A stretch of 42,114 bases of DNA from Heterotrichella gracilis (Eukaryota; Sar; Xanthophyceae; Tribonematales; Xanthonemataceae): the NCBI GenBank assembly GCA_032358255.1, contig JAULBX010026918.1, positions 1-42,114 on the forward strand. The letters are read 5' to 3'. Both the position numbers and the translations under genes were made by a program. Under the pieces are notes generated by a model. That model was given only the letters and a program-made list of their open reading frames with translations. It ran no database searches and was not told the DNA's origin. Below, one piece after another: positions 3,322 through 41,958 of the stretch. Position 1 is the stretch's first letter, and the number at the start of each line of letters is the position of its first letter.

Positions 3322-3414
3322 CCTCACGCGATGCCCTGCACTGGGCCACCGCTGCGAATGGGGACACCTCAGGTCGCCAGCGCCAGCACCAGCGCCAGCA
3401 CCAGCGCCAGCGCC
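3322..3414 (-). repeat. Copy of last-exon segment plus GCCAGC minisatellite, downstream of the stop
   Basis: About 55 bases here repeat the interior of the final exon of the 605-aa paralog (compare 3535-3600), placed downstream of its stop codon. The copy runs into an array of alternating GCCAGC/ACCAGC hexamers (3376-3414), which seems to have expanded from the GCCAGCGCC at the equivalent point of the exon. It is one of the exon-segment copies typical of this window. Confidence 0.7.
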
Positions 3415-3478
3415 ATCACATCTACTGGATGCAACCACACTAAGATGTCCAATGGTCATCAGAGATTACCACCCTGCT

Positions 3479-6400
3479 TCACACCCGCTCATTGGCGGCT
3501 GGTACAAACTCCTTGGCATGTGCGGCAGCCGCCTTGAGGGACTCCCTGCACTTTGCCACCGCTGCAAATGGTGACACCTCAGGCAGGCAAGCCAGCGCCC
3601 TACGGGTGGTATCCACCACATCCACAGGGTCCACCACAATGTCGCATGGGAGCAGGGCAATGGCCTTGTGCAGCGCGGCGCACTCGGGGCCATAGTCCCA
3701 CATGTCATCCTGGTGGGACTGCACACAGGAGGGTGGACCATCAGAATCATGGCCCATAATGTAGGGTAGATGGACCATGATTCATGGACACACTCCATGG
3801 TAGATGGACCATGGTTTTATGGCAGATGCACACAATCCAGTCAAGCTGCTCTGTAACTGGCACACAATTGTAAGGGCGATGCCAACCTAACCGTGATGGA
3901 ATGCATGCGACAGGACTAACCAACCAATGGTATGCATACGCACCGTTCCCTTTGCGTAGACTTGCAGCAGTATCATCTTCGCATCCCCGCCCAGCACCAG
4001 TGGGAAAAGAGTGGTTTTGCCAGTCAGCGCCTTCTCTATGGCAGCCACTGAGTCGATGCACACACCTGCAGGGGTCCAAGAGATGGTGTCAAGTAGGGTA
4101 CAGGGTTTAGGCCCTAAACCCTGTAATCTGTAGGGTTAGGGTTCATGCATGCATCCGGCCAAAGGTCAGCAGGATATCACGAGGGACCTTTAACATGCAA
4201 GTGTAAAAAGCGGCAGCGTAGCTTTAGTTTGTGCTTTTTTAATTTTGGCATTTCAGGCTGGAGAGGCTAGCCACCCCAATGGTGCACCAGATTTCCAACA
4301 CCACCATTGCAAAATACATTAATACCAATAGAAAATGATTATTGTATTTATTTCCAACAAGAAATGGCGCCCTACCTAGGAAGCCGTAGCCCCCTATCAT
4401 GAGGTTTGAGGCGGTAGCAGCAACATTTGTGATGCAGCCAGCGGCACCCAGCAGGCGCAGCACCCTCCGCTTGCCCTCATCAGTGCTCAGCACCTCATCG
4501 CTATGCCAGTTCTGCATCAGGGAAGCACAAAAAAAATGAAATACTTGAAAGGACATTTATCATCACAATTACGGATACGATCGTTCATACATCAACGTTT
4601 TCCAATTGCACTTACAGACACAATCCAACACCATAAAAGATACAATTACATGATGCATTACGACAATGATGACCGATTACCCAACCCATTTAAGACCAAG
4701 ATATTCTACACCGCACTGGTCCATCACATGCCCCTTTCCCCATGCCAGCACAGCATCGCACCACGAAGGGAGCCCCCGTGGCCCATGTGCGGTTCAGGAA
4801 GGCATATGAACCCCATCCTGTGAACCCGCTGATACTCAGGCACCGGTGGCACCCCCAGCTGGCAATTGCGACCCCTCCCCATACACCAAAAGAAGAATGC
4901 AAGCCAGACTAAACCCTGCCCACTGCCCATCCAACACAAACACCCCGTCTCGTTTCAATGTTCGTGCCGCCGCCACAACCCACCACGAAGGGAGCCCCCG
5001 TCGCCCATGTGCGGTTCAGGAAGGCATATGATCCCCAGCCTGTGAAGCCGCTGATGCTCAGGCACCACTCAAGGTGGCAATCCAAGAGGGGACCGTCAAC
5101 CTGCAGGAAAAGAAGTTTGGATCAAGCAATGCCAAAAGCCATTCCTCAATGAAGAAGTCCTGAAGGATGGCTGTTGCCTTCTCTAACCCCAGAACCACAA
5201 TCCTTGGACCTTTCAGGTGCAGCTGGACCCAATCCCTAAACCCGAAACTCTTCACCTCCCCGCACCTGTAGCTGCACACTCGCATGCGCCATAAGTGTGG
5301 TTGCTTTCTCAATGTTGTTGGCTGAGGCAGTAGCTATCATGCCTGTATTGAGAGGGTATACCAGGGGGATCTGAACCCAATTGTCCTCATCACTGCACGG
5401 GAAAACAGGAGAATGGTTAGCTAGGAGGAAGTGTACCCGCAGGCTGTGCCGAGGGCAGACGATAGCAGTCGCTCATGAGTGCAAATTGTTATTGCCATCT
5501 CACTGTTGTTGACTAACGCGGTGGTTATCATGCCTATATTGAGATGGTATGCCAGCGGAACCTGCGCCCACTTCCCTTCATCCCTTCTTGCGATCCATTA
5601 AAGGATCTAGAATTTAGGACTTAGGATCTAGGATCAGGGATCTGGGATCTAATCTAGGATGTAAAAATGAAAATCTTTTACATCATAGGATTTATCGAGG
5701 ATTAATATGGAAAAATATTAATCTTTAGTTAGCGGGGCCCCGCCCGCAACGCACCCCTCTCCAGATCCGTCCTCGACGCACAGCCCCGCACCAAAGCTGG
5801 TGAGGTTGCTGCCCAACCTCACCCGCACCCTGTGCCCAGCCTGCGCCAGCGCCTCAATCAGCCCCTCCATGGTGGTGTGCTCCTCGGTATCATCTTCATT
5901 GAGTTTCACCCGGAAGATGTCCAGGCGCCTGCCCTGCAGGAAGTTGTCTGCAGGGAAATGGCAGCAGCAATGGACGTCAAAAACATCATTTGAAGGAATA
6001 GATCAACGGATCAATTAACAGTTATGCTGTATGGAGACATTTGACAACAGCAATAGGGAACATCCTGGTACAGTCAACCATGAGCGCCTGGAACCAATCA
6101 AACAACGTTAAAACTTTATAAATTGTTTATTTTCAAGTCTAAAGCTTTACAAATAAACTCTTTTTTTGCTTTTATAAAAGTACAATCATCCCAACGACAT
6201 ATCTTATTTACATGCGTTCCAGCAGTACAGCCAGATGAGCACTCTACAATCGACATGATGACTTCCAAATCTCCATACCAACCAGATCCTTGTATTCTGC
6301 ACCTCTGCTGTGAATGACAAATCCCCTTTTACAGCTCAGCCCAGCGTCGCACCTGGCAGGCAGTTTGCAATAGGGCGGTCAAGGGTTTGGGTTTTAGGGT

Positions 6401-8598
6401 TTAGGGTTCAGCGCACCTGGCAGGCAGTTTGCAGTGAGGCGGTTGAGCAGCACCGCTGTCAGGCTGGATACAGCTGCCTTGCGTGCAGAAAAGTGGTTGC
6501 GCAGCCCCCCGTTGCCGCTGTGCAGGTCTGGGAAGAAGGGTGACACAGGCTGTGGGGGAGGGCCCTACGTGCAGGCAGCGACAGAGGGAGGGAATCAGTC
6601 GGAATGGAACAATGGGGATTAAAAGCAGAGAAGAAGGGCCCTGCATGCAGTCAGCAACAGGGGAAGGTAATGACTAGGGGATGAAACAACGGGGATTAAA
6701 ACAGAGGAGGAGGCGCTGCATGCAGGCAGCAAGAAGGGAGATACATCAGCAGGATGTAAAACAGGTATGGGACAAATGGTGAAACAAGGTGGGGCTATGG
6801 GCCCTGCATGCTGCAGCGACAGAAAATTACAACAAGACGGACCCCTAAGGACGAATGACGCAAAGCCCTAAACCCTATGACTGCTCACCAATTGTTTCTC
6901 TTGCGATTCAGCGTGCATCCCCCACACCCACCTTATTGATGTCCCGGGCCAGCACAAACCCTAAGGCTGCTTGTAGGCAAACCCCAAACCCTAGACAAGC
7001 TCACCTTTTGTTTCTCCTGTGACTCAGCATGCATCTCCCCCACAACCATATCCATGTCCCGGGCCAACACGAAGGGGTTGGGCAACACCGCAGCCAGGTC
7101 ACCCGCACCGGGATCCTGACCGTTCAGCAGTATATCCAGCGGGGTCAAGGCGGGTTTTGCTCCTGAGGCAGCTGCGCCAACTGGGTCGGCTGTCGCTTTC
7201 GATGCTTTTGTTGCCTTGGAGACATCCTCGCTCACCCGCTGCGCTGTGGCCACTGCCGCGGCTAGGTCCAGTGTCGACATGAGGTGGGACATTACGAAAG
7301 CACCGAAGGGGGTAGCATGGGGCTTCTGGGATTTGCCTGCGGCACCCATGCTTTCTTAGGATTCAGGGGTTTAGGGTTTAGGCATAGCTACATGCGTGCC
7401 CCAAGATGGGATATGGTGCCAGCCCTGTTTGAACCACTGTCTCTAACGCCCCTTGTCAATGGGCCTGACACTGCTGGGTCCCAAACCCTAATCCGTCAAC
7501 CCTAAACTGAAAACCCTAAACCCTGATTGTGCGACTGACCCTGCTGGGTCTGCAGTTGATATGAGGTGGTCCCAAACCTGTCTAGCAGGCACGCAGTGAT
7601 TAAGAATCGAACCTGACTAACACCATACACCCAGCAACTCCACGACTCCCCCGCACCTGATGAGCGCCAGAAGTTTGGCAGGAACATGACCAGGGGCAGC
7701 ACCTGGCGCAGCCCAAAGTGCTCCAAGGCAGTCACTGCGGCCTCCTGGAAGTCCACACTCCCCGAGGGCACCAGCGAGCTGAAGTAGTCCCCCAGGGACA
7801 TCAGCTTGAGGCTCTTGAGCTCAGGCATCTGGCACACCCGTGGGTCTAGCTCCAGCCATTGCAGCAGCTCACCTGAACAGTCAGGGCAACCGTTTGGCCC
7901 CATGCTGTTTTAGGGTTTAGGGTTTAGCTTTTTGGGGTACTTCAGGTCCTGGCACACCCGGGGGTCTAGCTCCAGCCATTGCAGCAGCTTACCTGAACAG
8001 GATGGGCAACCATTTGGTACCAGGCTGTATAAAGGTTTAGGGTTTTAGGTTATCTAGAGTCCTGGCACGGGCCATATGGCAGCAGCTCACCTGACCAAGA
8101 GCGGAGAGAGGCATGAGCACGCCTGTCACTTTCCTCACCCACTGGTGCCTTGCAAGGAGGCTAAGCTACTTTGAATACATGGAAAAGCCGTTTAGGGGAG
8201 GAGTTTCCCCCAGAGCAACCCCTGAGAGCAACCTCTATCTCGTGAGGCTAGTGAGAGGACGTACATGAGGAACTAGTGCGTAACCTCCTTTGGGATGGTG
8301 TGTTACTTCTCAACGTCGTGGGCACAGAGTTTTGAGCTCCAGTGCGTTTCCTCTAGTCTGGTTGCACCTTGTTTGGGCAATGGTACACTGCTTTTCGCTT
8401 TTTGGGCGCACCTTTTTTGAACTTTCCACTGCTGGCTGCATCAGGGTTGCGCAGGACCGTGACCTTGCGCTGGATAGCACGCTGCACTTGCCACCTCCAC
8501 CAAAGGTAGATGGTCGGGATGGCTAGGAGTAAGGCTGTTCCTAGCAGCTGAGGCAGGTACGTGAGGACCCACGTCAACACATGCTGTATGTGCGCCAT
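3479..8598 (-). CDS. Unrecognised membrane-anchored protein, paralog 2 (605 aa, 10 exons)
   Basis: Exons on the minus strand, 5' to 3': 8598-8412, 7872-7657, 7336-7005, 6564-6417, 5947-5755, 5392-5266, 5100-4984, 4511-4376, 4065-3944, 3718-3479. Every junction is GT-AG and in phase, giving 605 aa. The start ATG is followed by a short N terminus and a hydrophobic segment (about residues 8-34) ending in WWRW, so it is probably a signal anchor with a soluble C-terminal bulk. Exon 2 encodes a conserved LLQWLELDP...CQMPEL block. Exon 5 has an acidic EEDTEEHTT block followed by a basic RVRVRLG segment. Exon 9 includes the string ALTGKTTLFPLVLGG, which is not a proper Walker A. I do not recognise the family. 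The paralog at 11925-17240 has identical lengths for exons 2-9, which argues strongly that the model is right and the frame is under selection. Many introns contain copies of the neighbouring exon edges. Confidence 0.85.
4759..4849 (-). repeat. Intronic copy of exon 7
   Basis: This stretch repeats much of exon 7 of the 605-aa paralog (original about 4984-5076) in the intron downstream of it. The coding content (SGFTGWGS-like, then NRTW) is still readable, but the copy lacks the 5' part of the exon and is interrupted. It is a relic exon copy and probably not spliced. Confidence 0.7.
5493..5583 (-). repeat. Intronic copy of the 5' half of exon 6
   Basis: This region repeats the 5' half of exon 6 of the 605-aa paralog (original 5325-5392), upstream of the real acceptor. 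The translated copy resembles YPLNxGMIxTA but has diverged at many positions. Confidence 0.7.
6342..6378 (-). repeat. Intronic copy of the exon 4 donor edge
   Basis: The last roughly 35 bases of exon 4 and its donor (original near 6411-6447) reappear about 70 bases downstream in the intron. TTTAGGG-like heptamers lie between the two copies (6390-6409). Confidence 0.7.
6390..6409 (+). repeat. Interstitial telomere-like TTTAGGG repeat
   Basis: Two and a half tandem copies of the plant/green-algal telomere heptamer lie in intron 4 of the 605-aa paralog, immediately beside a duplicated splice donor. Similar tracts recur in introns across the window. Confidence 0.8.
7908..7927 (+). repeat. Interstitial telomere-like TTTAGGG repeat
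   Basis: This short TTTAGGG array lies in intron 1 of the 605-aa paralog, between exon 2 and the intronic copy of exon 2's 5' edge. Confidence 0.8.
7947..8023 (-). repeat. Intronic copy of the exon 2 acceptor and 5' edge
   Basis: About 75 bases repeat the acceptor region and first codons of exon 2 (original about 7830-7900), roughly 120 bases upstream in transcript order. The copy keeps a CTGTTCAG-type acceptor, so it is a potential alternative acceptor. A third, more degenerate piece lies near 8060-8100. Confidence 0.75.
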
Positions 8599-11924: not shown

Positions 11925-14900
11925 TTATTGTATGCGTACATACTGCTTAGCGTGCACAGCAGCCGCCTCGAGGGATGCCCTGCACTTTGCCACCGCCACA
12001 AACGGGGACACTTCAGGCAGGCAAGCCAGCGCCCGGCGGGCGGTATCCTCCACATCCGCTGGGTCCACCACAATGTCGCATGGGAGGTCAGCAATGGCCT
12101 TGTGCAGCGCTGCGCACTCAGGGCCGTAGTCCCACATGGCGCCCTGGTAGGACTGCAGGCAGGGGAGTGGGAGCGTTGGATAGCATTTTCTAGGATTGTA
12201 CAGTTGATGCCAGGTGGTATCAAAACCCTTCCTAGGGTTGTTTCCAACAAATCCACTGGTTAACGCATTGAAAAGTCAACAATGGCCTTGTGCAGCGCTG
12301 CGCACTCGGGTCTGTAGTCCCACATGGCGCCCTGGTAGGACTGCAGGCAGGGGAGTGAGAACGCTTGACAGACATTCCTACGGCTGTACAGTTGACGTCG
12401 AGTTATTAAGAAAACCCCTGGCAGGTTTGTACCCTCCAAATCCACGAGGGTCCACCACAATGTTGCATGGGAGCAGGGCAATGGCCTTGTGCAGCGCGGC
12501 ACGTTTGAGGCCGTATATAAATGCAATTATTATAATGGTATGCGTACGCACCGATCCCTTGGAGTAGACTTGCAGCAGTATCATCTTTGCATCCCCACCC
12601 AGCACAAGGGGGAAAAGGGTGGTCTTGCCAGTCAGCGCCTTCTCTATGGCAGCCACCGAGTCGATGCACACACCTGCAAGCAGGCATCCAGCCAGCCGTG
12701 AGGAGCATAGCATTAAACTGTTGCAGCACAGCACAGGAGCTTGCCCTATACCCTAACCCTAAACCCTAAACCCTAAACAGCTCCTGCATGTGCGACCGTG
12801 CTGCACTGCATTTGTGGTTATATGATTACGGTTTGTTCCACAAAAACATGAAATCGAGTTCGTTCTGATGCATCCAATGGGGTGTCAGGAGGGTGTCAGG
12901 GCAATATCCTCCTGTGAACTGCAATAAGCTCCATCGGTGAAGATGCATGTGCGGGTGTCAATGACAGTGCATTGATGCACTCATTTTTAACCCATTTTTA
13001 CAGCCTTCTCTATGGCGGCCGCTATGTCAATGCACATCCCTGCATGCACCCACCCAGTCAGATGATTACATGCATCCCACCATTACAGTCAGCCTTGCAC
13101 CCAACCAGAGATCAGTGTGACACACTGCGAGCAGCGCACAAACTCCCAACCACTACAGCCAGGCCTGCAGTCAGCCTTGCACCCAGCCAGCCACCAGGAG
13201 GACACACTGTGCGCCGCGCACAACCATTTGTCCAGCACCGCCCCATGCAAACACCATGAGACAACATGAATGGTTGCACTTGTAATCAGTCAACATCATG
13301 CCTATGTAATCAGTCATCATCATGTCCAGCACCGCCCCATGCAAACACCATGAGACAACATGAATGGTTGCACTTATAATCAGTCATCATCATGCCTATG
13401 TAATCAGTCATCATCATGTACAGCACCGCCCCATGCAAACACCATGAGACAACATGAATGGTTGCACTTGTAATCAGTCATCATCATGTCCAGCACCGCC
13501 CCATGCTAACACCATGAGACAACATGAATGGTTGCACTTGTAATCAGTCATCATCATGCCTATGTAATCGTGCCCCACCTCGGGCTTTTCTCGATATTTG
13601 TCCTACCTAGGAAGCCGTAGCCACCAATCATGAGGTGTGAGGCGGTAGCGGCAACATTTGTGATGCAGCCGGCAGCACCCAGTAGTCGCAGCACCCTCCG
13701 CCTGCCCTCCGCACTGCCCAGCACCTCGTCGCTATGCCAGTTCTGCACCACACAGTTTACCAATTACCATTTTGGTTCCTTCTACAAATACATGGTCGGT
13801 TTGAAAGTGCAATTGAAATCACATGCAAAGCTATTACGCCCAGCACCTCGTACCCACAGCAGTTCTGCCCATGCTCAAGTCACAAACTCTAAACTCCAAC
13901 CATGTAACCTAACCCAAGGTAGTCCAGATTCGACCCAAAACAGCGTACGACCTGCCAGTGCCCCTGCTGCTGCCCAGGCACCACTCTAGGTGGCAATTCA
14001 AGAGTGGCTCCTACCCATCCACAAATAAGTGAAACCAAGCCACACATACCCTTCCGCAATGCCAATGCCAGCCACAAACCCTGTTTCAATGCCTGTGCCA
14101 CCACCCCCACCCACCACAAATGGAGCTCCCGTGGACCATGTTCGGTCCAGAATGGCGAATGACAGCCATCCAGTGAAGCCGCTCGTGCTCAGGCACCACT
14201 CCAGGTGGCAATCCAAGAGTAGCCCTTCGATCTGCAGGAATGGGGTTACTATGTCACATGTCGTCTATGTCACATAATGACCTATTATAATCTATAGGCA
14301 AGATCAATTGTAACCTGTACGCTTGCCTGAGGCATGAACCCTCGTAGCCTTCCCTGTGTTCAACATCATCAATAACCCACGACCCTAGATTTCAAAATCT
14401 CAGCCGTACTTTCCAAACATTCAACCCCTCCCACCAGCAGCTGTATGCTTGCATGTGCCATGAGGGTGGTTGCCTTCTCTGCGTTGTACGCTGCCAAAAG
14501 CCTAAACCCTAGATCCCAAACCCTAGACCTTCTCACCTCCAGTTGTATGCTTGCGTGCGCCATGAGTGTGGTTGCCTTCTCAATGTTGTTGGGGGAAGCA
14601 GTGGCAATCATGCCTGTGTTGAGAGGGTATGCCAACGGAATTTGAACCCACTTGTCCTCATCACTGCATCCAGGCCAACCCCAAGTTTTTGCCAGAAAGA
14701 TCGCTCCAGCATGCAGGAAACTGGGACAGCATTTGGCAGGCTTGGGGCAGGGCAATCGAATGGATACCAGGAGGGCCAAGAACGCCAGGTAAAATCAGAA
14801 AATGTCATCACAAATGTGGATATAAAACAACAACCCACCCCTCTCCAGACCCGTCCTTGACGCACAGCCCCGCCCCAAAGCTGGTGACGCTGCTGCCCAG

Positions 14901-19641: not shown

Positions 19642-22600
19642 ATGGTGGCTTCCCTGGTTCCATGCTACAGTGGTGCCACAGCCCGCCCAACCACCAAGGT
19701 TCCTTTTCCACGTGCCCTGATGTTTTGGACACCGTGTCCTGCTGCATTCAAAGCCGTGTCCAGTCTCCAGCCCCGGCAACCCAGAATCACCAAAAAGGAC
19801 CAAACGGTGAGCTAAACACAATGGCGCATTGTTTACCCTCTATGTGTTCCCTCTATAGGACTACTTGATGAGAAGCAACCCATTCTTTCCTGGTCACGTT
19901 AAGCTTCATAGCGGTGGTCATACCAGAGCATGAGCCTCCCAGTGCCTGACTAGATGGCATCAACCTTATTGCACACCATCCCACCCTGCACTTGGGGACC
20001 CCTTGGTGAATGTTGAGGGTGTATGACTAGTCCATTCACTCCAGCGGTACCAACAACTTAAAACTCAACCTTGAAGAAGCTTGCACCACACGTCTCTGTT
20101 TGGGCATTGGTTGTACCATGCTGCATGCGTTTCCTCCTCGAGTCTAGTGCGTCGTCCCCGCAGGGTATGTGCAGTGCTTGACCAGGCAGACACTGCAAAG
20201 GCAGGCTTCCACATCACCCGCCTTGCCGCCACTCCCAAGCCCAGCGACCTTCAACCACTCTCAGTGCACGTCGGTACGGCGGGGCTGAACACGGGTTTTA
20301 GGGTTAGGGTTAGGGTTTAGGCATGACGGGTGCTGAAGTGGTGTGGCACACAGGGCCCTTTTCTTTTAACACTCACTATAAGTGACACTCTTTAAATGTG
20401 GGGGGGCGCTATAGCTTGGGGTTGTCAACCCCTGAAGCACCACGATGACCCATTTTTCACCAGCACCACCACCATGATAACATTCAAGGACTCGAAGTGA
20501 ACTTGAGTACCGTATGGATTGTAATAGTTTTGTGTTTACTATATGGTACAAGCACACACCTTGTCCGCTGTAGATTGGCAGAAACTGGCAAGGGTTTGGA
20601 GGCGTGTGCCTGGCTGCTTGCGGTGTGATTCTAAACCCTACACCCTAATCGCAAAATATCAGTCTCGGCATGTGCTGTGGCCGTGCATGAGGTTGCAACT
20701 TGCCCAACCCACCAACCATGCTAAATCAGTGTAACATTGCCATCCCATCCACCCAGGTTGGCACAGACTGACGAGGAGCTGCAGGCGTGTGCCTGGCTGC
20801 GGGCTGTGTCATCTATGTGTACCCAGCCGAGCGGGCATTCGCGGGCAAGCTGCACCAGATGATGGTGGCAGAGCAGGAGTATAAGGAGCTGCGGGTGAGG
20901 CGCCCATGGCATTGCAAGTGAAAAAACCCGCACCCTCAAGTGCCCAACAGGCGTGGCACTTGCATGAACAGCTTGATCAAGCTCATGCTATCTATAGACA
21001 TGACTTGCGGCCTGGCGACGCACATCCCAATGCCACACACAATGTGCATGAAATCTCACTGCACTACACGACCAATCCTATAGCCATGCATGGGACGCAT
21101 TCCATTCTGCACATTACCCCACATTGCTCTCACCCACCCAGGCGTGGCGCATGCATGAGCGGCTGGATGGTGCCAAATCCAACGAGCGGCATTATTGCAT
21201 CATGATGGCGCGCCGCGCATCCCCATGCCACACAAAAGTCGCTGGATAAATTAAAATAAAGCACTGCTAACATGCCCAATCCTGTAGCAATGCGTGGCGC
21301 ACCTGATGCAACACTGCTCTCACCCACGCAGGCGCGGCACATGAACGAGCAGCTGGATGGTCCAAGTTTTAACGAGCGGCATGCTTGCGTCATGGCGGTG
21401 TGCGACGCATCCCAATTCGACCCACAGTCACTTGATGGCAAGCTGGTGCTCAGCGGGCCCCGAGGGGAGCGCCAGGTGGTGGTGGGGACGCTGGATGTGG
21501 ATGGGGTGCGGGCGCTGCCCAGCGAGCTGCTAGTTGGTGGGTGGGTGGCGGGGCTGGTGGGGTGTGGTGGTGGGACGCTGGGTTTGGATGCGGTGCGGGC
21601 GCTTCCCGGCGAGCTGCTGATCGGTGGGTGTAGGGGGGTGGTGGGCGGGTGGGCGATGGGGGCGGGGGGGATGAGGATGCGGTGCAGATGCTGCTTGCTG
21701 AATTGCCGATTGGTGGCGATGGTGGATAGTCATGTACTGGACAGGGGGTGTGGACTTGAAGGATGCTGGGTGCATATCGATGTTGGGTGGGACGCTGGCA
21801 TGCATGTGCATTCCTGGAGAAACACATGTGCCTCATTCACCGCCACTAGCACCACCACTACCCCTGTCGACCTGCAGCGGTGGGAAGATTGCAACGGTGA
21901 GGTGCACAGCAAAATCTTGCAAATTTCCACACACATTTTGTTCCGCTGTGTCAACACCACCTTTCTCATTTCTGCAGGCAACTCCACCAACGCCGCCTAC
22001 CTTACCAACGTGTGCAGCACCCCCCTGCCAGGCGCAGAGGGGTGGGAGCTGCGCTGCTGGCAACCGCACGGCAGGTGGCGGACGGGTGGGGGGTGGATGC
22101 GATCTACGTGCACGCCATGGCGGTGAATCAGGTTGCTAGGCGCTTCTACGACAAGAATGGATTTGTAATGGACAAGGAGGAGAGTGCCAACCAGGCACAT
22201 AACAGGTGGGGGAAAGATATTAAATGGGAATGTAATTGTTATTTTTGCTTGTGGATGTAATGGAGGCCATGGGGGGCAATCTGCTGCATTGGGCATTTGC
22301 ACTCAACATCTTTTTTATTCATTGTATATCCCATGCGTGCATCTTGGGAGCAAGGCTAGATGGCGTGGAATGGGCAGGGCAAACCGTGCTGCTGCAGGAG
22401 ATTGCGGACATTTGGCCCACATTTGGCCACATCTTCCAACATTGTGGGAGGACTTTGAATATATCACGTGATGCATTAGAGGTCTCCTGACATTTGCCTA
22501 TAGTTGGTCCACATTACCGATTTGCCGATACTTTCGTACTTTCGTCCAGGGCCACTGCTTGGATGACGTGGAGGGGGCGGGGCGGACTGTGCTGCTGATG

Positions 22601-27673: not shown

Positions 27674-30600
27674 ATGGTGGCTTCCCTGGTTCCCTGCTAC
27701 AATTGTGCCACAGCCCGCCCAACCACCAAGGCTCCTTTCTCACGTGTCCTGAGCTTTTGGGCACTGTGTCCAGCTGCGTTCAAAGCCGTGTCCAGTCTCC
27801 AGCCCCGGCAACCCAGAAGGACGAAACGGTGAGCTAACCACAATGGGGCAAAGTTTACCCTCTAGGACCATATGTGAGAAGCAATACAGTCATTCCTGGT
27901 CATGTTAAGCTCCATAGCGGCCGCTGTTGACCCTCCCAGTGACCTGACTAGATGCCATCAACCTTATTATACACCATCCCACCCTGCACTCGGGGACCCC
28001 TTGGTGAATGTTGAGGGTGCATGGTTAGTTCCATTCGCTCCAGCGGTACCAACAAGTTAAAATTCAACTTGAAAAAGCTTGCACCACATGTCTCTGTTTG
28101 GGCATTGTTTGTACCATGTCTGCATGCAATCCCTCCTCAAGTCTAGTGCACTGTCCCCGCAGGGTATGTGCAGTGCTTGACCAGGCAGACACTGCAAAGG
28201 CAGGCTTCCATATCACCCGCCTTGCCGCCACTCCTAAGCCCAACGACCTCCAACCACTCTCAGTGCACGTCAGGTACGACGGGTGCCGAGATGAGGGTTT
28301 TAGGGTTTAGGGTTTGAGGACGGCTGGTACTGAAGTTGTATGGCACACAGGGGTCTGTTCCTTTAACACTCAACAGGAATGACACTGTTTATATATGTGG
28401 CGGCTAAAGCTTGGTTTTGTCACCCCTCCAACCACCATGATGACCCATTTGTCACCAACACCGCCCCATACCGCCACCATGATGTAACAATTTAATACTC
28501 AAAATGGAAAGCGAATGAAATTCGGGTCGCTTATGCCCTTGTCGCTATAGATTAGTAGAGAGTGGCACGGGGTTGGAGGCGTGTGCCTGGCTGCGGGCGG
28601 TGTTCTTCTGGGTGTAACCCTAAACCCCTAAAGCAGTACAACTGCGGACTGGCATTTGCTGAGGCCACGCATGGAAATGCACTTTGACCAATGCACCACC
28701 CATGCTACATCAGTGTAACACTGCCATCCCACTCATCCAGGTTGGCACAGACTGATGAGGAGCTGGAGGCGTGTGCCTGGCTGCGGGCGGTGTCATTCTA
28801 TGTGTACCCAGCCGAGCGGGCCTTTGCGGGCAAGCTGCACCAGATGATGGTGGCAGAGCAGGAGTATAAGGAGCTGCGGGTGAGGCGCTCATGGCATTGC
28901 AAGTGAAAAAACTGCACCCTTAAGTGCCCAACAGGCGTGGCACTTGCATGAACAGCTTGATCAAGCTCATGCAATCTATAGACATGACTTGCGACATGGC
29001 GACGCACATCCCGATGCCACACACAATGTGCATAAAATCTCACTGCACTACACGACCAATCCTATAGCCATGCATGGGACGCATTCTATTCTGCACATTA
29101 CCCCACATTGCTCTCATCCACCCAGGCGCGGCGCATGCACGAGCGGCTGGATGGCGCCAAATCCAACGAGCGGCATTATCGCATCATGATGGCGCGCAGC
29201 GCATCCCATGCCACATAAAAGTCGCTGGATAAATAAAATAAGGCACTGTTAACATGCCCAATCCTGTAGCAATGCGTGGCGCACCTGATGCAACACTGCT
29301 CTCACCCACGCAGGCGCGGCGCATGAACGAGCGGCTGGATGGTCCAAGTTCCAACGAGCGGCATGCTTGCGTCATGGCGGTGTGCGACGCATCCCAATTC
29401 GACCCACAGTCACTTGATGGCAAGCTGGTGATTAGCGGGCCCCAAGGGGAGCGCCAGGTGGTGGTGGGGACCCTGGATGTGGATGCGGTGCGGGCGCTGC
29501 CCGGCGAACTGCTGATCGGTGGGTTTTGGTGGGGGTGTGGGGGGCTGTGGTGGTGGGGGCGCTGAGTGTGGATGCGGTGCGGGCGCTGCCCGGCGAGCTG
29601 CTTATCGGTGGGTGGTGGTGGGAGATGGGGGCTGGGGCCTGGGGGGTTGTAGTGATGGGGACACTGGATGTAGATGCGGTGCGGTGGCTTCCTGGCGAGC
29701 TGCTTTTTGGTGAGGGGTGAGGGGTGGGGGGCCATGGACGGCACAGGAGGGAGGCAGGTTGGTGAGTGGTGGGAGTGGTGTGTGGCGCTGTGGTGCTGGT
29801 GCTGTCCGGCAAGTGGCTTATAGTTGGGTAGTGGGTGGGTGGGTGGCGCGGGCTGTGGAGGGTGGGGACGTTGGATGTGAATGCAGTGTGGTGGTGTCTG
29901 GTCTTCTGCCAATTGGTGGTGTATGGTTGGGAATTGGATGTACTGGGGTGGGGTGTACAATCGATGATGGCGGGTGCATGGGTGTATAATGGGTGCAGCA
30001 CATGCAAACACACCACCACCACCCCCCCTGTTGGCGCGCAGGTGGTGGTGGTGGGTCAAATGCGCTTATGAGACGTACATCATCTTCTGCGTCTGGATTC
30101 TGATCCGCTGTGTCACTCACCCCTTTCTATGTCCCGCAGGCAACTCCACCAACGCCGCCTACCTTGCCAACGTGTGCAGCGCCCCCCCTGCCAGGCGCAG
30201 AGGGGTGGGGGCTGCGCTGCTGGCAACCGCCCGACAGGTGGCGGACGGGTGGGGGGTGGATGCGATTTACGTGCACACCATGGCGGTGAATCAGGTTGCT
30301 AGGCGCTTTTATGACAAGAATGGGTTTGTGGTGGAGAAGGAGGAGAGTGCCAACCAGGCACATAACAGGTGGGGATAGAAACCAATTGGGAACATGAACA
30401 TTCTTAGCCTGCTGTCAATGGATTGGGGCGCAATCTGTTGCATCACGGCATTTGCCACCATATGTTATTTTTTTCTGTGGTATCCACCAACAGGACCATT
30501 ACTGCACCCGGGGGGCACTGCCAGGACGATGTGGAGGGGTTGGGGGGAAGTGTGCTGCTAAGGGATTGTTTCCAATATTTGCCGACATTAGCCCAACATA

Positions 30601-33600
30601 TGCCAGCAGTTTGCCGAAGGACTACGATGTATTGCATATTTGCCGTCTCTTGACATTTGCCCACATTTGCCCACATTTGCCAGCATTTGCCAACAATTTT
30701 GTGCATGCACCCAGGGGGCACTGCTTGGATGGCGTGGAGGGGGCGGGGCGGACTATACTGCTGAGGGACAACCGGCTGGGAGGCTCTAGGGAGGGAGACA
30801 CGAGCACCTCCTACGATGACTGTGCACCCTCCCCCTTGGACAGCGGAGGTAGCTACAGGTGAGCCATGGTCCTCTTTCCGTAAACTCTAAATCATAACCT
30901 AAATTCTAAACCTAAACCCTAATGGCAGTGCACCCTCGCCCATGGACAACAGAGGTGGCTACAGGTGAACTGTGACCCTCTCCCTTCAACCCTAAACCCC
31001 AAACCGCAACCCCAGGTGAAGTGGCAATGCCACCGTATGCAGCAATGTCCACTCGCACAATTCATGGGGCCTCCCCTCTAAGCTCGAAACCCCGACCTGA
31101 CCTCCCAACCCTGAACCTATACCCTGAACCTTTCTGACCTGTCCTCCCAACCCTAACTTATGCCCTGAACCTGTCTGACCTGCCCTCTCAACCTTGAACC
31201 TAATTGTCGAACCCTAAACCCTTCCAACCTCTCCTGCCAGCCGTAATCCCCGACCAAAACCAAAACCCCTTGTGCAGCGCCAGCAGCAGCAACAGCAGTC
31301 AAGAGCACCCCACCACCACCACCACACACCCCGCGCGCGCCCCCGTGAGAGTACAACCGGGGCACCAGATTGCTGGCCTACAGGCAGGGCTACAGGGGGA
31401 GGCGCCATCAGCCAATGAGACCCCGGTGGGGTTTCACCAGCGGCGCATGGGGGCGGGGGAAGCGGAGGGCCAGCTGGCGCCACTGGAGGTGGAAGTAGGG
31501 TAAGCGCTGGCTAGGGTTTAGGTTTAGGGTACCTACCGGTCGGGGTTTAGGTTGGAATTAGGTAGGGCATTGAAGGCTTTTGGTAGGGTTCCTACTTGGG
31601 TAGATTAACGACGCATGAGGGCCGAGGGCGGTGTCCCTCTACTCGTATGTGTGACCATAAACCTAAGAACCTTGAAATGCCAGCCTCGGCATGTGCACGC
31701 AGATGTGCAATTTTGCAGATGGTGTAATGTCCATGGAATGCAATTTGCCCAATCCACCACCCCACACAACATCTGTGTAATATGTTTTTATCTATCCATG
31801 AATATATGTTGGTATGTGTTGTTTTTAATATACAGTCTAGGGCACCAATATATGAATTGAATGTGCTGTAGGTTTGCAGAGACTGACGAGGAGTTGGAGG
31901 CGTGTGCCTGGCTGCGGGCGGTGTCATTCAGTATGTACCCACCAAGCTTTTATCATTATTTATCTTCTATGATATAAAATCTAGGGCACCAATGTATGAA
32001 TTGTGTGTGTTGTAGGTTTGCAGAGACCAATGAAGAGTTGGAGGCGTGTGCCTGGCTGCGGGCGGTGTCTTTCTATGTGTACCCTCCCGAGCGGGCGTTC
32101 GCGGGCAAGCTGCACCAACAGATGATGGCAGAAGTGGAGCTGCGGGAGCTGAAGGTAGGGTGTATTATTATTTCTATATTTTGTAAAAATGTGCGTGCAT
32201 GTTTTGTGTATGCCCTCATTTTCTTTGCGTCGAGGTCACACTTTGCAGTACCACGTAGTATGCAAACTGATTTTCCTGTTGTGTGTTGGTGAGTTGCGGA
32301 ATCTGTTGAACTGCATATGCTGGCAAAAGCCTAAACCCTCAACCCTAAATGACCCACCCCTTTGTCCCAGGCCCGGCGCATGAAGCAGCGCCTGGATGGC
32401 AACCAGGGGGGGGAGCGACTCGAGTGCCTGGTGGCGGTGTGCCCCCTCAGCCTTTTGGACCCCTCAGATGTGGAGGAGAGGCTGGTGGTAGGGGGGCCAG
32501 GGGGGGAGCGGTACCTGGTGGTGGGGACGCTGGATGTGGATGCAGTGCGGGCGGTGGCAGGGGAGGTGCTCATAGGTGGGTGGCGGGGATGGTATGGGAG
32601 TGGTGGTGTGGGTGGGTGGGAGGGTGCAGTCCATTGTGTATGGTGGGAGGGGGGGGAATCTTGATGGGGATGCGGTGCGGGCGGTGGCAGGGGAGGTGCT
32701 CATAGGTGGGTGACGGCGATGGTGTGGGGGAGTGGGTGGAGGTTGGGGAGGGGAGGGAGCGGCAGGTGGTGGTGGGGACTCTGGATGTGGATGCGGTGCG
32801 GGCTGTGGAGGGGGACGTGCTGATAGGTGGGTGGCGATGGTTGTGGTGGCTAGTGGAGGGGTTGCTGGAGAATGGAAGAGGATGGGTACATGTTGGTAGG
32901 AGGCTGGATGCGGTGGCTGTGCATTCTTGTAGATCTTATCCGTATCTGATGATTACACCTCATCTGCGTTGGATCGTCTATAATCGTGACATTACCCCAA
33001 CCCACTCTTCCCCACCCACGCAGGCAACTCCACCAACGCTGCCTACCTCGCCAACGTGTGCAGTGCCCCCCCTGCCAGGCGCAGAGGGGTGGGGGCTGCG
33101 TTGCTGGACACAGCCCGGCGGGTGGCGGGGGGGTGGGGGGTGGATGCCCTTTATGTGCACACCATGGCGGTCAATGAGGTGGCGCGGAGATTCTATGACA
33201 AAAATGGCTTTGTGGTGGAGAAGGAGGAAGGGGCAAACCAGGCGCACCACAGGTGGGGAGCTAGAGAGATTTAATGAAAGATCCCATGAACTAGGACAAA
33301 ATGAATGTAAGAGAGTGGCGGGTGGCGTGAGGTGCATGCAATAATAGCGCACACCATGACTATAATGTGCTGGCTTGGAGGTTCCCCGACAAGAATGGTT
33401 AACCCGGTGGAGAAAGAAGTGGGGGCAAGCCAGGCGCACCTTATGTGGGCTGTTCTTCCCTTACAGGATCCAGTGATTGATAATCACCGAGGCCTTGTTA
33501 TGAATGCAACCTGGTGCCAACCCTGTAGGAAAGAGGGAAGTAGAAAAGGCAGAAGAAATATTTTCGAGTACTCCCGTGTATCAACTCCCATGATATATAT

Positions 33601-34923: not shown

Positions 34924-35171
34924 TGCACTGAGTATGCCCCTAAGTGACCCCCAAACATTTCCCAAAATAAATGGCCTATTATGCTGCTGTGCATGTCGCG
35001 TGGCTCCGCCTAAACCCTATTCTCTAACCCTAATAAAGATACAAAAACGATACACCTGCAGCGTCCGTCAGCAATATTGTTCAATTGTCGGACAGATATC
35101 ACCTGCGCCCCAGTGGCTCCACCCACCACGGTTCAACTACCCCAAGGGAGGTCCCCACACCCATGGTAGGA

Positions 35172-35459: not shown

Positions 35460-35584
35460 ACTGCTGGTACTATGGCTGCCAGGACTGAGTGAGTTGGCTG
35501 TGCTGTGGGGACTGGGTACTCTGGCTGCCGGGATTGGTGGTTGAGCTCTGAGGCTGATAATTTACAACTGCCCCCCAATGCGCG

Positions 35585-36924: not shown

Positions 36925-36959
<35 letters not shown>

Positions 36960-38835
36960 GCCGCTGCCCTCTGTCGCTCCCGCAGAGCCACCAGCTTGAC
37001 CCTGTCTTGCTCCACCTCCCATTTGCGCTGCGCCAGCCGATCCCCACAGCTGGACTCGATCAGCTGCTGCAGGCGCTTGCACACACCTGGGAAGCGTGGG
37101 AGGGTTGGGGTTTAGGGTTTTGTATTTAGGGTTTAATAGCTACTCGACCAGCTGCTGCACACGCCTGGGAAGCGTGGGAGGCATGAGGTGTAGGGTTTCA
37201 ATAGTATGGTTTGATAGCTACAGCTGGATTCGATCAGCTGCGGCAGGCGCTTGCACACGCCTGCGAAGGGGTTTAGGGTTTCATGATTAGGGTTTTATGG
37301 CTACAGCTAGACTCAATCAGCTGCTTCAGGCTCTTGCACACGCCTGGAAGGGCAGGAGGGATGGGGTTTAGGGTTTAATAATTGAGGTTTCATACTGCAG
37401 GGTTTGGTAGCTACTTAATCAACTGCTGTATGCACTTGCACACGCCTGGGAAGGGCGGGAAGGATAAGGTTTAGGGTTCATACTTTAGGACTTAGTAGTT
37501 ACGGGGTAAGTGCCACGTACTAAGTTCCACGGGCATTGTGAACAGTACGGGGTAAGTGCCACGTCCTGAGTTCCACGGGCATTATGAACAGCTTGGCTAA
37601 AAGTCTGCAATTTTTGCTGCTATCGTAACATGTGTAACCGTGCATTGTGGCGGTGGGGGCATGCACGAATATGGTGCCGGGGCCCAGACACGTACCAGGT
37701 GTCTCCCTGTGGAGGGTTTTTCGGCACACCGGGCAGCTTTGCTTGCCAGCTGCGTTGAGGACCCACTCCTCGTAGCAGTGCTTGCAGAAATCATGACCGC
37801 AGGCGCCTGCAGGTGGGTTACAGGTACAGTGAGTTTAGCGAGTAACCACTAAAAGAGAGGTACACTTTTGTGTCCCACTGCTTGTAGCAGTGCTTGCAAA
37901 AGTCGTGACCGCAGGCGCCTGCAGGTGGGTTCCGGTACAGTGAGTTTAGCGAGCTACACTTCGCAGGTGGCCAACTCAAGAGCAATGAGTGAGTTTATCT
38001 GGTGAGCAATATATTACTTGGTGAGGAGACCCAAGACTAGTGTGCAGCAACAAGTAGGAGCCTGCAGCGCGTTCAGGTGCACTCATATGGCAATTTACCA
38101 GTTCACAAGGAGACAGAAGGTGACTATACAGTGACAATACAGCTCTCTCCCAGGACTTTTCTGGGCTTATTAAACACTGTTAGGGGCTCGAGATCATAGT
38201 TTTGGTTCCACTGTGCGTATAACCACCCCAGTTATGCTCTGAACTGTGATGATTCATGCGCCCAGAACTCGTCATTGTTAGTGACGAGTCAAGACAAGGT
38301 TGGGCGTTAAAAAGTTGCTGCTGTTGGTTTCACCTTCAGACCTAACAGAGGTCCCAAGTGATAGGAGTTCTGGCAAGGCCTAGCAGACTGTTGGGTAGAG
38401 GTGGACGCAGCCCTGGCTTTTGAGTTGTACACTTGCGTTCTGTTGACGTGCGTTGATCACCTTTTGCCCCTTGGATTCTACCTCTCGTTATTGTAAAGCT
38501 TAGGTGTCACCCCTCTGCCCCTACTGCCTAAAAAACTTTTGCATGCATGCAAATGACAACATAGCTTCACACTACCACGTACCCACAACAGGGTCGACCT
38601 CCACGTCCAGACATATGGGGCAGTCAAACTCGGAGCCATCCAGGTGTTTCCGTTTCAAGGGCTTTGCAGGCTCCATTTTCGCCCCAGGAGATACAGCACC
38701 TTGCTGGTTAGGTGTCGAACGGCCCTGAGTATCAGTAGTAGGCAAGCTCCGAGCCTGGAACGCGTCCCGCTGTGCTGTTTGTACAGCTGGCGAGAAGCGG
38801 CTAAGCTGTCGAAAAGCATTCCTGCTGCCATCCAT
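35585..38835 (-). CDS. RING-finger protein with polyQ and Q/P-rich tail (about 424 aa, 4 exons)
   Basis: Exons, 5' to 3': 38835-38583, 37806-37696, 37086-36907, 36315-35585. All junctions are GT-AG and phased. Exons 1 and 2 together make a C3HC4 RING: Cys72, Cys75, Cys87, His89, Cys92, Cys95, Cys109 and Cys112 (CPICLD ... GACGHDFCKHC ... CPVCRK). RING proteins of this kind are usually E3 ubiquitin ligases; that role is inferred. Exon 3 encodes a charged helix (RLAQRKWEVEQDRVKLVALRER) leading into 11 glutamines from an unbroken CAG run. Exon 4 is a long Q/P/S-rich low-complexity region built on NHQSPQPxxQSP-like units, probably disordered. The N-terminal 70 residues contain a basic KPLKRKHLDG stretch that could be a nuclear signal. 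The 3' end of exon 4 is the least certain part. Confidence 0.75.
36346..36405 (+). repeat. Intronic GGTTGTTGT microsatellite
   Basis: A 9-nt GGTTGTTGT-type repeat (minus strand CAACAACCA) lies upstream of the acceptor of the last exon of the RING gene. Translated, it mimics a poly-Thr or Asn-His run, but phasing places it in the intron. Confidence 0.85.
36925..36957 (-). repeat. (CAG)11 trinucleotide run encoding polyQ
   Basis: Eleven uninterrupted CAG codons lie in exon 3 of the RING gene. Pure runs like this are length-unstable. A shorter CTG/CAG-rich stretch in the intron near 36777-36796 seems to be a decayed copy of the same exon region. Confidence 0.9.
37141..37450 (-). repeat. Four upstream copies of the RING gene exon 3 acceptor edge
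   Basis: Segments near 37141-37170, 37210-37262, 37305-37352 and 37410-37450 repeat the exon 3 acceptor and its first codons (original about 37050-37095). Each has the form CCxGG(A)xxCGTGTGCAAG..CTGxxGCAGCTGAT, and TTTAGGG-like sequence lies between copies. All copies keep a usable AG, making a ladder of five possible acceptors. Confidence 0.8.
37880..37930 (-). repeat. Copy of the first half of RING exon 2
   Basis: This repeats the acceptor and first 16 or so codons of exon 2 (GACGHDFCKHCYKQW), just upstream of the real exon. It then diverges before the CPVC pair. If spliced in, it would give a RING lacking its last zinc ligands. Confidence 0.8.
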
Positions 38836-40193
38836 CTGGTTGCACAGAACAGCCCTGGCAGCTCAAGGTGTCCCTGTTGAGGCGTCACTGCCACATACCA
38901 TGGTACAGCTCTGAAAGCGCAGGCTCCAACGATGTCAGGCCACAACACGCAGTGGGGGCACTGGGCTATGGTCAGTAGCAAGCAGTGTCTCGCTACTCGA
39001 AACACAAAGCTTTGGCTCTGTTTGTTTTGAACAATAAACTCTTTTCGGCAACTTGGGCCAACTTTCTGAAAACCCTTTCCTGTCACCCTTGGTCCCCACA
39101 TTGTGGTGCACTTTGCATGGCCCAGTGAAAAACTGATAGCAGCACACTGCAATGCCACTGTGCCAGACAGCTGGCTGATTACAGCTTACTGTTTTGCAGG
39201 CGATCTGTACAAGCCGTGGAGACGCACCACGATGCCATTACACCGCTATTCACTACCATAGCCACGCTCCCAGCGTGCAGTCCATGGTTATTCTGAGCCG
39301 CGACGGGTACATTACTGTTCTGTTTCTATTTCTAGCCACGCTCAGTATCTGACTCAGTGAAACCCCAAATTCTACCCCTTAGGGTACTCAAGGGCCTGGG
39401 CGTGTGAGTATTCTCTGCCAGATCACTGACCAGGGCCTGCGAATCTTCTTCCTCAGCAGTAGCTTACAGAAGTGTAAATTTAAAACAGTCCGCGCTCGGT
39501 GCCACATCTCAGCTGGCAGCTCCTCAAATTGCCCGCTATAAAATACCCCAAAAAGGCCCCGCTAGTGGGCTGCTGTCGACCGTTCTCACATGCGTACCCA
39601 AGTAAGGGCCCCAGATGGTGCTTGAAGGTGCCTAAACACACCCCCAGCCGCCCTGCATCCACACCCAAATCCTCCTCGTGCGCCACTTGCAACCCTCCCC
39701 CCTCCAGCCACTGGAGAAACCCTTAGCAAAACCCTACAATAACTCGACCAGGCAGTGTCCAGAACCACCCTATATCAGTCTGTCTTCAGGCAATGCCATT
39801 CTATTCAGAGACCACAAAACTGACACCTGGACGCAGATCCACAACCACCCCCTTGCAACCAGCAAGTCCCTGCACGCCCCACACCGCCCAAATGGCATGC
39901 CCCTTATGGCCGCACGATTCCGATCGAAATTCCTCAACGCAACTACTAACCATGCATGCAAACCATATAGCAACCACACCAACACCCAGACACAACTATG
40001 GTGGCGTGAACCATCCAAAAAACGCGCTCCTGCTGCTACAGCAGACAGGTCTGCTTGTGATGTTACCCCACAAGCCTGCTGCCCCACAGCACGCATTCAC
40101 CAAAATGTTGGAGGTGCGCCGCTTTTGGTCCACACTCCCCGCGCCCCCACACCCCTACCCCCCACTCCGCTGCAACCCTGTGTGCACATCTAC
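38836..40193. other. No supported gene
   Basis: This is the upstream region of the RING gene and the downstream flank of the IF-2 gene, both on the minus strand. Open frames overlap on both strands and show no family signal. Confidence 0.55.
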
Positions 40194-40290
40194 ACCGTGA
40201 CGCTGGTGGCGGACGCCTCCTCCAGCGTGCGCTGCTTCTGCCTCATCCCAAAGGCCTCAATGGTGTCGCCTTTACCCCACTCCCGCCAGC
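40194..40290 (-). repeat. Copy of the IF-2 last exon's 3' end, including the stop codon
   Basis: About 95 bases repeat the end of the final IF-2 exon (original 40364-40465), including [12 protein letters not shown], a final TV and TAG. It lies about 170 bases downstream of the real stop. Confidence 0.85.
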
Positions 40291-40363
40291 GCCCCCACTT
40301 CCCACCGCGGCCCCACACCCCTACGCCAGAATCCCTACACTCCCAGCAGCATCCCCAGGACGC

Positions 40364-41958
40364 CTACACCGTGATGCTGGTGGCGGACGCCTCCTCCAGG
40401 GTGCGCTGCTTCTGCTTGACCTCAAATGCCTCGATGATGTCCCCCTCGCGCCACTCGCTAAAGCTCTCGCACCCCGCGCCGCACTCCAGCCCGGTGGCTA
40501 CCTCCTTCACGTCATCCTTGATGCGGCGCAGGGAGGCCAGGGGCCCGTCGTACACCAGGCGCTTGCCGCGCCTCACCTGCAGGGGGAATTGGGAGGAAGG
40601 GGCTTAGTCTTTGTGGGAGTATGGTGTGTGGAAAGCGTTAAGGGTTATTGGGTGTAGGTGTTTGAGCTTGTGGTTTGTGGATCGCGGTGGGAGGCCCCGT
40701 CAGTCACCATGCGCCTCGCAACGCTGCAGGGACCACACACCCAAACACTGCCCCAACATCCGCAGCACTCTGCTCACAAACCCTAATACAATCCCAACCC
40801 GAATCCAATTCCAATCCCCAACCACAAACTCACCGTGACCACGAAGCCCTTGCGCAGGACCCCCTCGGTCACCATGCACCCTGCCACGCTCCTAGATCCA
40901 GATCCAAACACACCACCCACACCTCCGCAGGCCCTAGCTCACAATCACCACTGCCACTGTCACTACCCCTGCAATCCCCAATACAATTACAATCCCCAAT
41001 CACAACCACAAACTTACCGTGACCACACAGCCCTTGCGCAGGACCCCCTCTGTCACCATGCAACCCGCCACGCTCCGGGACCCAGACCCAAACACCGCCC
41101 GGACCTCGGCAGTCCCCAGGGGGATGCGCTCCTCCACTGAGCGCAGGCGGCCCTCCATGCGTGAGCGCACCTCGTCCAGCAGGTCGTAGATGACCTTGAA
41201 CACGCGCATCTCGACACCTGGAATTGGGGTGAGCATGTCAGGCTTGCAAGCCCATGATCGAGAATGGAATAAATCATTCCAAATGATGTATGCCCTTGGG
41301 ATCCTGTTGAAGTGTTTTTTGCCGTAGCAAAATCCTGCAGACCTGCCACACCACCCTCAACACCCCACACCCGCACCCACACCCGCCAACACATTTGCGC
41401 ATTGACCTGCTCCAATGGCCAGATATTATCCCCCAATCACCCTACACACGCCAGCACCACTGCGCGTGCATACACTGCCCTCTGCCACACTACTTGCCCA
41501 CCCACTTGCCCACCCACCACCCCCTCCACCCCAACCACGCACCCTTGCTCTTTGCCGAAGCCATGACCTGCTCCGATGGCTGGATGTTGAACCCTGAACC
41601 CTAAACCCTACACAGCAGCACCTGGCTCTAAGGCTGAATATTGAACCCAAGCCCCAGCCCACCAGCTGCCCTCCCAATCAACCACACCTCACACGCACCC
41701 TTGCTCAATCCCACACATGCCCACCCCACCCCCTCCACAACCCCACCCACACGCACCCTTGCTCTTTGCCGAGGCCATGACCTGCTCCGATGGCTGGATG
41801 TTGAAACCCAGCACCAGCCCGCCACTGGCAAACGCCAGGTCGATATCAGAGCTGGTGATGTCACCGGGCGCCGCATGCAGGTAGCGCAGCATGACGCTGT
41901 CTTGGGGTAGGGCTGAGAGGGCCGACTTGACCGCCTCAATGGTACCAGATGCATCGCC
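40364..41958 (-). CDS. infB: Plastid translation initiation factor IF-2, C-terminal exons (partial)
   Basis: The last three exons, 5' to 3', are 41958-41757, 41018-41217 (read 41217-41018) and 40576-40364, all in phase and ending in TAG. They encode about 204 residues; the 5' part, including the GTPase domain, is beyond the right edge. The first exon begins [20 protein letters not shown] and ends in NIQPSEQV, matching IF-2 domain III. The second begins [17 protein letters not shown] and contains the [13 protein letters not shown] segment of the C-terminal beta barrel. The third has [19 protein letters not shown] and ends [16 protein letters not shown], the hallmark of the fMet-tRNA-binding C2 domain. 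The EEAS ending is typical of plant plastid IF-2 (Arabidopsis FUG1), so I infer a nucleus-encoded chloroplast factor that places initiator tRNA on the 70S ribosome. All three exons have 3'-edge copies downstream. Confidence 0.92.
40693..40892 (-). repeat. Two intronic copies of the IF-2 middle exon's donor edge
   Basis: 40829-40892 repeats the last about 60 bases of the middle exon plus its donor ([18 protein letters not shown] in translation, with GTGAGT). 40693-40731 is a shorter, more decayed copy. The original is at 41012-41078. Confidence 0.85.
41536..41594 (-). repeat. Intronic copy of the IF-2 upstream exon's donor edge
   Basis: This repeats the last about 55 bases of the 41757-41958 exon with its GTGCGT donor ([16 protein letters not shown] in translation). 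CCCTAAACCC-type sequence follows directly at about 41590-41613. Confidence 0.85.

Follow-up and report, generated by a model that had tools for sequence, protein, structure and literature searches.

Locally duplicated exon edges and telomere-like tracts in the genes of an algal contig

Where does the sequence of a growing intron come from? Intron growth and the source of intron sequence are rarely visible, since intron sequence decays. The window analysed here, a stretch of 42,114 bp that makes up the whole of contig JAULBX010026918.1 (C440; assembly GCA_032358255.1, 68.5 Mb in 903 contigs), raises this question in its IF-2, GNAT and RING genes and in two unnamed, putatively membrane-anchored paralogs. 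Short segments spanning a splice site or a stop codon recur there in the adjacent intron or flank, and the initial annotation read them as traces of a frequent tandem duplication process whose bias towards exon edges might be due to selection. Each such duplication is datable and its fate readable, because the exon it came from changes slowly enough to act as a yardstick.

Exon edges are copied within the window

The reported copies exist: 14 copy:original pairs, re-aligned with 60 bp of padding, exceed 200 shuffles. The pair 14429-14487:14531-14589 scores 34.0 without window overlap, against a maximum of 12.0 in 300 shuffles. Four copies within 37142-37459 score 24.5-31.5 against 37050-37100 (null at most 11.0), 7949-8025 scores 54.5 against 7829-7905 (null 10.0), and both copies within 32655-32832 hold, at 48.5 and 43.5 against 16.5. 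For the two copies claimed within 28932-29216, that at 29105-29208 is clear (57.0 against 12.5) and that at 28932-29001 is weak (15.5 against 11.5). When a local direct pair is defined by blastn self-comparison as two blocks of at least 40 bp lying 40-600 bp apart, the window holds 49 pairs, and one block-wise dinucleotide shuffle of it holds none.

Homology supports the identity of the originals as exon edges in IF-2, GNAT and RING; in the two unnamed paralogs the assignment comes from a codon-usage model and is less certain. This model, for which 1,559 codons of the genome were the training set, provides all exons outside homology-mapped genes and marks coding stretches in both paralogs; splice sites are inferred from sequence. 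Neither paralog has a significant Pfam match and Rfam gave no name (the PDB search covered IF-2 only).

Local duplication is frequent beyond the window

The window was compared with nineteen 10-kb stretches from other contigs. These are not a random sample: 14 of the 19 were taken from contigs with a TTAGGG triple, which four of the 14 stretches themselves contain. L013 (G000:C32:100001-110000) carries an apparent nitric oxide synthase (NOS) gene with oxygenase and reductase parts, whose best matches include a Bryopsis protein; this gene was taken up because L013 was the sample richest in pairs. Seventeen of the 19 stretches are alga-like. The other two look bacterial: their GC is near 0.35, and long open frames occupy 79-86% of the sequence. 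To these were added nine short stretches with exons of DEAD-box helicases, chosen by homology and independently of repeats; the window genes had been selected for their copies in the initial annotation. Samples L001-L008, fetched by telomere motif and in several cases overlapping other samples, were excluded from later counts and kept in one histogram.

The assembly seems to be mixed with a bacterium (contigs C1 and C100). Named relatives of the GNAT protein are mostly from trebouxiophyte green algae (Micractinium, Nannochloris, Chlorella, Botryococcus, Trebouxia, Myrmecia), and on these protein matches the host is a trebouxiophyte-like green alga.

The frequent local duplication proposed for the window is also found outside it. 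Pairs occur in 15 of the 17 alga-like 10-kb samples, at 1 to 26 per positive sample, and in none of the shuffles. L019 and L026 are without any; the conclusions are the same whether L026 is counted or is omitted with the bacterial-looking samples, which have no pair either. Inverted pairs within 600 bp are absent. An introner or another transposed element would scatter related copies over unlinked loci; pairs more than 600 bp apart number only 0-1 per alga-like 10-kb sample, a count made without a genome-wide search with a copy. A duplication cluster touches a mapped exon in seven of the nine DEAD-box stretches.

Duplications concentrate at exon edges

The 14 genes with exons mapped by homology hold 32 clusters in contact with an exon and 2 confined to introns; counted as pairs, the figures are 43 and 8. 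Random placement, with units lying wholly in an exon forbidden, predicts an edge:intron ratio of 0.71:1, or 1.11:1 when edge units are granted a 1.56-fold detection advantage, and the excess is significant for clusters (P 1.6e-7) and for pairs (P 2e-6). The NOS and DEAD-box genes together contribute 20 against 2 clusters, and the DEAD-box genes alone 7 against 1 (P 0.048). Modelled exons are touched by 83 of 116 clusters, compared with 55 ± 5 when the exon map is rotated; in the 10-kb samples without L013, and hence without the window, 40 of 52 clusters touch an exon, compared with 25.9 ± 3.2. An outward copy is present at 56 of the 300 edges of codon-model exons, against 6.1% with the rotated map, and at 25 of 208 edges in the 10-kb samples without L013, against 4.2%. 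Strong matches in a 60-mer scan fall at 23 of 68 edges, 52 of 447 intron windows and none of 20 exon interiors; the edges above the null comprise 14 of 28 in the NOS gene, 11 of 22 in the window and 3 of 18 in the DEAD-box set.

The same picture would arise if ordinary tandem duplications fell at random everywhere, those in exon interiors being purged, those confined to introns fading sooner and those at edges staying visible. Pairs wholly within an exon are indeed rare, intron columns diverge faster than exon columns, geometry alone makes edge cases common (the 0.71:1 above), and the excess in the 60-mer scan is only mild. However, the observed counts of clusters and pairs stand against a prediction of about 1.1:1 after both corrections, the detection advantage of edge units simulated under the actual settings is only 1.2-1.3-fold, and the excess remains in the 10-kb samples without L013. 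Random duplication is an unlikely account, if one well short of negligible. The suggestion that selection explains the bias stands in part: it fits the rarity of exon-interior pairs, but the splice-boundary excess persists beyond what geometry, tolerance and detectability predict. The edge bias in this sample is real, and its size is uncertain.

Copies are mostly close, direct and in part adjacent

The copies are spaced about 65-240 bp apart. Taken as the smallest spacing per cluster (116 clusters), the values form two classes, with one cluster above 260 bp; a two-component fit places the means at 100 and 183 bp, and multiple modes appeared in 0 of 500 bootstraps drawn from a unimodal distribution. 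The two size classes are clear for exon-touching clusters (0 of 1000) and reach p 0.054 without the window, and they are reported with caution.

Permissive extension left 47 usable edge rows, which describe units with one exon edge. The copies meet within -12 to +20 bp in 19 rows, with homology spanning the whole period, and 5 rows overlap as arrays. Many of the duplications are plainly tandem, with the intron half more diverged. Young copies that looked like spaced, exon-only blocks ending exactly at splice sites had suggested a copier specific to exons. This candidate was set aside because blastn had trimmed the diverged intron half, which permissive extension recovered in the 19 rows; such a copier might still account for rows with separated copies. 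Donor and acceptor sides behave similarly (copies at 47 of 251 predicted donors and at 44 of 257 predicted acceptors), which fits a process at the DNA level.

Telomere-like tracts are enriched between the copies

TTTAGGG is taken to be the telomere repeat because arrays of it begin several contigs. Of the 8-mers that occur 60 times or more in the sample, words of this repeat are the most over-represented (20-40-fold), and they cover 2.1% of the non-coding and 0.17% of the coding sequence. Once coding and duplicated bases are set aside, telomere-like coverage is 6.2% between copies and 1.85% in the outer flanks. Of 139 pairs, 63 have the heptamer in the spacer, compared with 26 and 24 of the equal-length flanks, which may include coding sequence; without the window and L013, it is present in 40 of 81 spacers and in 14 and 18 flanks. 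A telomere-like tract is absent from over half of the spacers.

Tract density is highest in the 50 bp next to donors (7-9%, compared with 0.8-4% deeper in the intron) and rises only slightly before acceptors (5.9% at 25-50 bp, compared with 5.0% at 300-500 bp). Tracts within 60 nt accompany 14 of 32 donor edges with copies and 34 of 137 others (p 0.049), and 14 of 29 acceptor edges with copies and 23 of 144 others (p 0.0003). The clearest junction filler, at L012 3438-3624, consists of 21 bp of telomere-like sequence between two blocks 98.8% identical, and it persists after extension. A tract could be either cause or consequence of a duplication: it may trigger the break, enter at the junction or travel along with the duplicated unit.

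Around the predicted splice sites of the whole sample, runs of G on the sense strand are most frequent directly downstream of donors and runs of C directly upstream of acceptors, and both fade over about 200 bp. Runs of G or C alone were rejected as the mark of copied edges: donors with copies have 3.53 against 2.51 runs per 60 nt (p 0.0006), while acceptors give p 0.48. Within 50 nt upstream of acceptors, the telomere-like tracts occur almost only in the CCCTAAA orientation, possibly as branch-site sequence. Exons of a telomerase RNA-binding domain were found at G000:C626:23723-24513.

The copies decay close to neutrality

Mismatches between exon and copy number 655 and fall on codon positions 1, 2 and 3 in the proportion 184/168/303 (46% on position 3); 276 are synonymous (42%) and 379 nonsynonymous. 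For a neutral copy of an exon under constraint, arithmetic from a random synonymous fraction of 27.7% gives 46% on position 3 and 43% synonymous. Modelled-exon blocks scoring below 12 were dropped from this count, in which copies of one exon are not independent. Across 19 tandem units, exon columns diverge by 13.4% and intron columns by 22.1%, a ratio of 1.65 where 1.56 is expected. The copies were said to keep their AG or GT signals; most do, but GT survives in 42 of 53 and AG in 32 of 41, which is the neutral rate (about 77% by arithmetic) and leaves no special retention. Nor do copies decay with distance in the one array where this was measured: the five-copy RING array (D8) shows 64, 60, 66 and 76% identity to the first copy, going outward. 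The copies are mostly neutral debris, with exceptions.

Coding selection on the copies had been suggested by the pair at L013 6683, with three synonymous mismatches all on position 3, and was abandoned once the mismatches were pooled. The paralogs GNAT2 and GNAT1 agree at about 95%, introns included, over 28710-29510 and 20730-21530 of the window, other introns being near 60%; this stretch may be a gene-conversion-like tract or a recent partial duplication.

A functional role, in which the copies act under selection as decoy or alternative splice sites or as alternative exon parts, is improbable. GT or AG is still present in many copies, two GNAT copies are more alike between the paralogs than the intron around them, and the youngest class has a slight third-position excess. 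Yet codon-position counts, synonymous fractions and splice-dinucleotide loss match the neutral expectation overall, one NOS copy carries several amino-acid changes and another an in-frame stop.

Still less probable is a reading in which new introns are born when an exonic segment containing AGGT is tandemly duplicated, with the copies as relics. Intron gain by tandem genomic duplication is a known mechanism (PMC3443670), and several exons here begin with GT after AG; the duplications resemble it as within-gene tandem events made harmless by splicing. Under that model, one member of a pair would sit at the end of the upstream exon and the other at the start of the downstream exon, and the period would match the intron length. 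None of the 34 homology-mapped introns (189-955 bp) has such a pair, and the proposed making of new introns from duplicated AGGT is not supported in this set. Unlike that mechanism, existing introns are lengthened here, and no mapped intron is bounded by two copies. An assembly artefact is hardly credible: the assembly is mixed (GC 0.35 contigs, dense long open reading frames), but the copies differ by about 1-30% where an artefact would give near-identical ones, exon frames are intact and divergence follows codon position.

Features of the window

The features are collected in Table 1. Two further repeats lie elsewhere in the window: a 33-bp in-frame repeat at 25855-26019 within a minus-strand coding stretch, among the few exon-interior repeats, and a 94/70-bp minisatellite at 13229-13569, whose copies match at 97% and touch no modelled exon.

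Table 1. Exon edges of the window and their copies (positions on the 42,114-bp contig).
Feature	Position	Strand	Basis
IF-2 last exon; the 3' part including the stop codon is the original	40364..40576	-	PDB phmmer to IF-2, E 3e-16; frame
Copy of IF-2 last-exon end in 3' flank, period ~174	40141..40306	-	re-alignment
IF-2 internal exon; 3' end and donor are the original	41018..41216	-	frame, codon-usage model
Copy of end and donor of IF-2 exon 41018..41216 in downstream intron, period 182-184	40793..40937	-	re-alignment
IF-2 exon, 3' end copied downstream	41755..41960	-	frame
Copy of end and donor of IF-2 exon 41755..41960; TTTAGGG-like tract just upstream in the intron	41493..41600	-	re-alignment
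GNAT3 exon, start copied upstream	32014..32154	+	tblastn with relatives P0001/P0034
Copy of acceptor and start of GNAT3 exon 32014..32154, period 144	31813..31943	+	re-alignment
GNAT3 exon, end copied downstream	32373..32575	+	tblastn with relatives
Two copies of end and donor of GNAT3 exon 32373..32575	32630..32848	+	re-alignment
GNAT2 exon, both edges copied	29311..29518	+	tblastn with relatives
Copy of start of GNAT2 exon 29311..29518, period 188	29093..29218	+	re-alignment
Two copies of end of GNAT2 exon 29311..29518	29532..29731	+	repeat family D1
Copy of start of GNAT2 exon 28739-28888	28549..28619	+	repeat family D7, tblastn
Copy of start of GNAT2 last exon 30710-30787	30513..30566	+	tblastn
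Copy of GNAT1 exon start, layout as in GNAT2	21109..21234	+	repeat family D5
Copy of GNAT1 exon end	21548..21645	+	repeat family D1
RING-gene region: exon edge (coding model 36926-37084) and intron start with telomere-like tract	37054..37143	-	D8, codon model
Four further copies of RING region 37054..37143, telomere-like sequence between	37132..37502	-	re-alignment
RING exon edge and copy, period 112, 91% identical	37762..37953	-	re-alignment, homology
Presumed exon edge of unnamed paralog (original near 12061-12207) and two copies	12061..12515	-	D15, D16, re-alignment
Additional pair beyond the initial annotation, 88% over 102 bp, spacing 222	4743..5066	- (by analogy with paralog, not established)	D19
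Pair 5293-5394 and 5484-5585	5293..5585	-	re-alignment
Pair, period 120, telomere-like tract between copies	7829..8045	-	D20, re-alignment
Pair 14429-14487 and 14531-14589	14429..14589	-	re-alignment
Pair 16024-16170 and 16221-16362, telomere-like tract	16024..16362	-	re-alignment

Discussion

The reading preferred here, to which we give a probability of about 0.5, is local break-repair duplication at a high rate, with a preference for exon edges, a link to telomere-like or G-rich intron edges and a part in feeding intron growth. Staggered breaks would form at G-rich or telomere-like intron edges, and their overhangs would be filled in and joined, producing a duplication and sometimes leaving telomere-like filler; both the action of a polymerase or telomerase and the cause of edge targeting are inferred. 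Duplications in exon interiors would be lost. Those spanning an edge would be harmless, because an intact exon and splice site remain and the original mRNA is still made. The second copy stays in the intron or flank, lengthens it and, with the exceptions given below, decays near-neutrally, and introns would thus grow by decayed exon edges.

Several observations weigh against this reading. The 60-mer scan is milder than the cluster counts: matches above the 99% null occur at 28 of the 68 edges (just 3 of the 18 in the DEAD-box set), in 118 of the 447 intron windows and in 5 of the 20 exon interiors. When only pairs with 88% identity or more are kept, 22 of the 30 clusters touch an exon, where rotation gives 15.3 ± 2.4 and, in the largest of 300 rotations, 23. 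The 10-kb samples are non-random, the NOS gene was included because L013 was the richest of them, and the excess rests on a small sample. The 33 clusters that touch no exon have no clear second size class (p 0.36), and in 23 of the 47 extended rows the recognisable copies lie 21-322 bp apart, some but not all being non-neighbours in arrays. Outside the conversion-like tract, two of four GNAT1-GNAT2 copies are more alike (0.83 and 0.89) than the surrounding intron (~0.6), an outcome that pure neutrality does not predict; position 3 takes 39 of 68 mismatches in the youngest class, somewhat above expectation; and gaps differ 4.7-fold between intron and exon columns where a factor of 2 is expected. 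The telomere-like tracts in the young junctions inspected are imperfect, so the tracts may predate the duplication. Model searches for Ku_C and Ten1 gave no match, and these searches were uninformative.

A fuller version of the break-repair reading is possible, though doubtful. A telomere-linked process would target exon-intron borders: tracts would break, the telomere-end machinery (telomerase, or CST with Pol alpha) would heal the overhangs, and a splice-site block of about 100 or about 180 bp would be duplicated. Introns would then be largely decayed copies of exon edges, and their growth would be self-feeding, because each duplication also copies the tract.

Small tandem duplication is a known kind of event; the preference for exon edges is unexplained and the link with telomere-like sequence unexpected. 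Patch-mediated break repair and paired nicks are known in rice and Arabidopsis as routes to small tandem duplications. Tandem exon duplication can give alternative exons, and here too exon sequence is duplicated into the adjacent intron, but the copies in the extended rows are of exon edges rather than whole exons and decay close to neutrally. According to PMC8355091, fill-in of 3' overhangs at breaks by CST and Pol alpha-primase, followed by end joining, yields small tandem duplications in mouse and human cells. CST acts at telomeres (PMC8355091), which would connect the duplications with the telomere-like tracts, by analogy only. The duplications described here are likewise direct and short, in part adjacent and without inverted copies; they differ in that their units are larger (about 100 and 180 bp), stand at high density, concentrate at exon edges and have telomere-like tracts between copies.

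In mammals, telomere repeats are inserted at double-strand breaks, sometimes with target-site duplication (PMC2246262), which a table of that paper gives for 6 of 130 rodent and 4 of 25 primate interstitial telomeric loci. Such loci share with the present tracts the presence of telomere-type repeats at internal sites, whereas the tracts here stand out by their shortness, their frequent imperfection, their great number and their tie to duplications at spacings of 65-240 bp. No report of exon-edge copies with telomere-like tracts appears in the titles and abstract openings of the matches listed, a weak negative.

Telomere-like tracts between the copies, two size classes and near-neutral decay are additions to the initial account of this contig. 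The copied exon edges show one way in which introns can grow, and they may point to unusual DNA repair. If edge targeting and the telomere link held genome-wide, the break-repair route behind natural small tandem duplications would become testable, as would the roles of mutation bias and selection in setting intron length and the source of spare splice sites.

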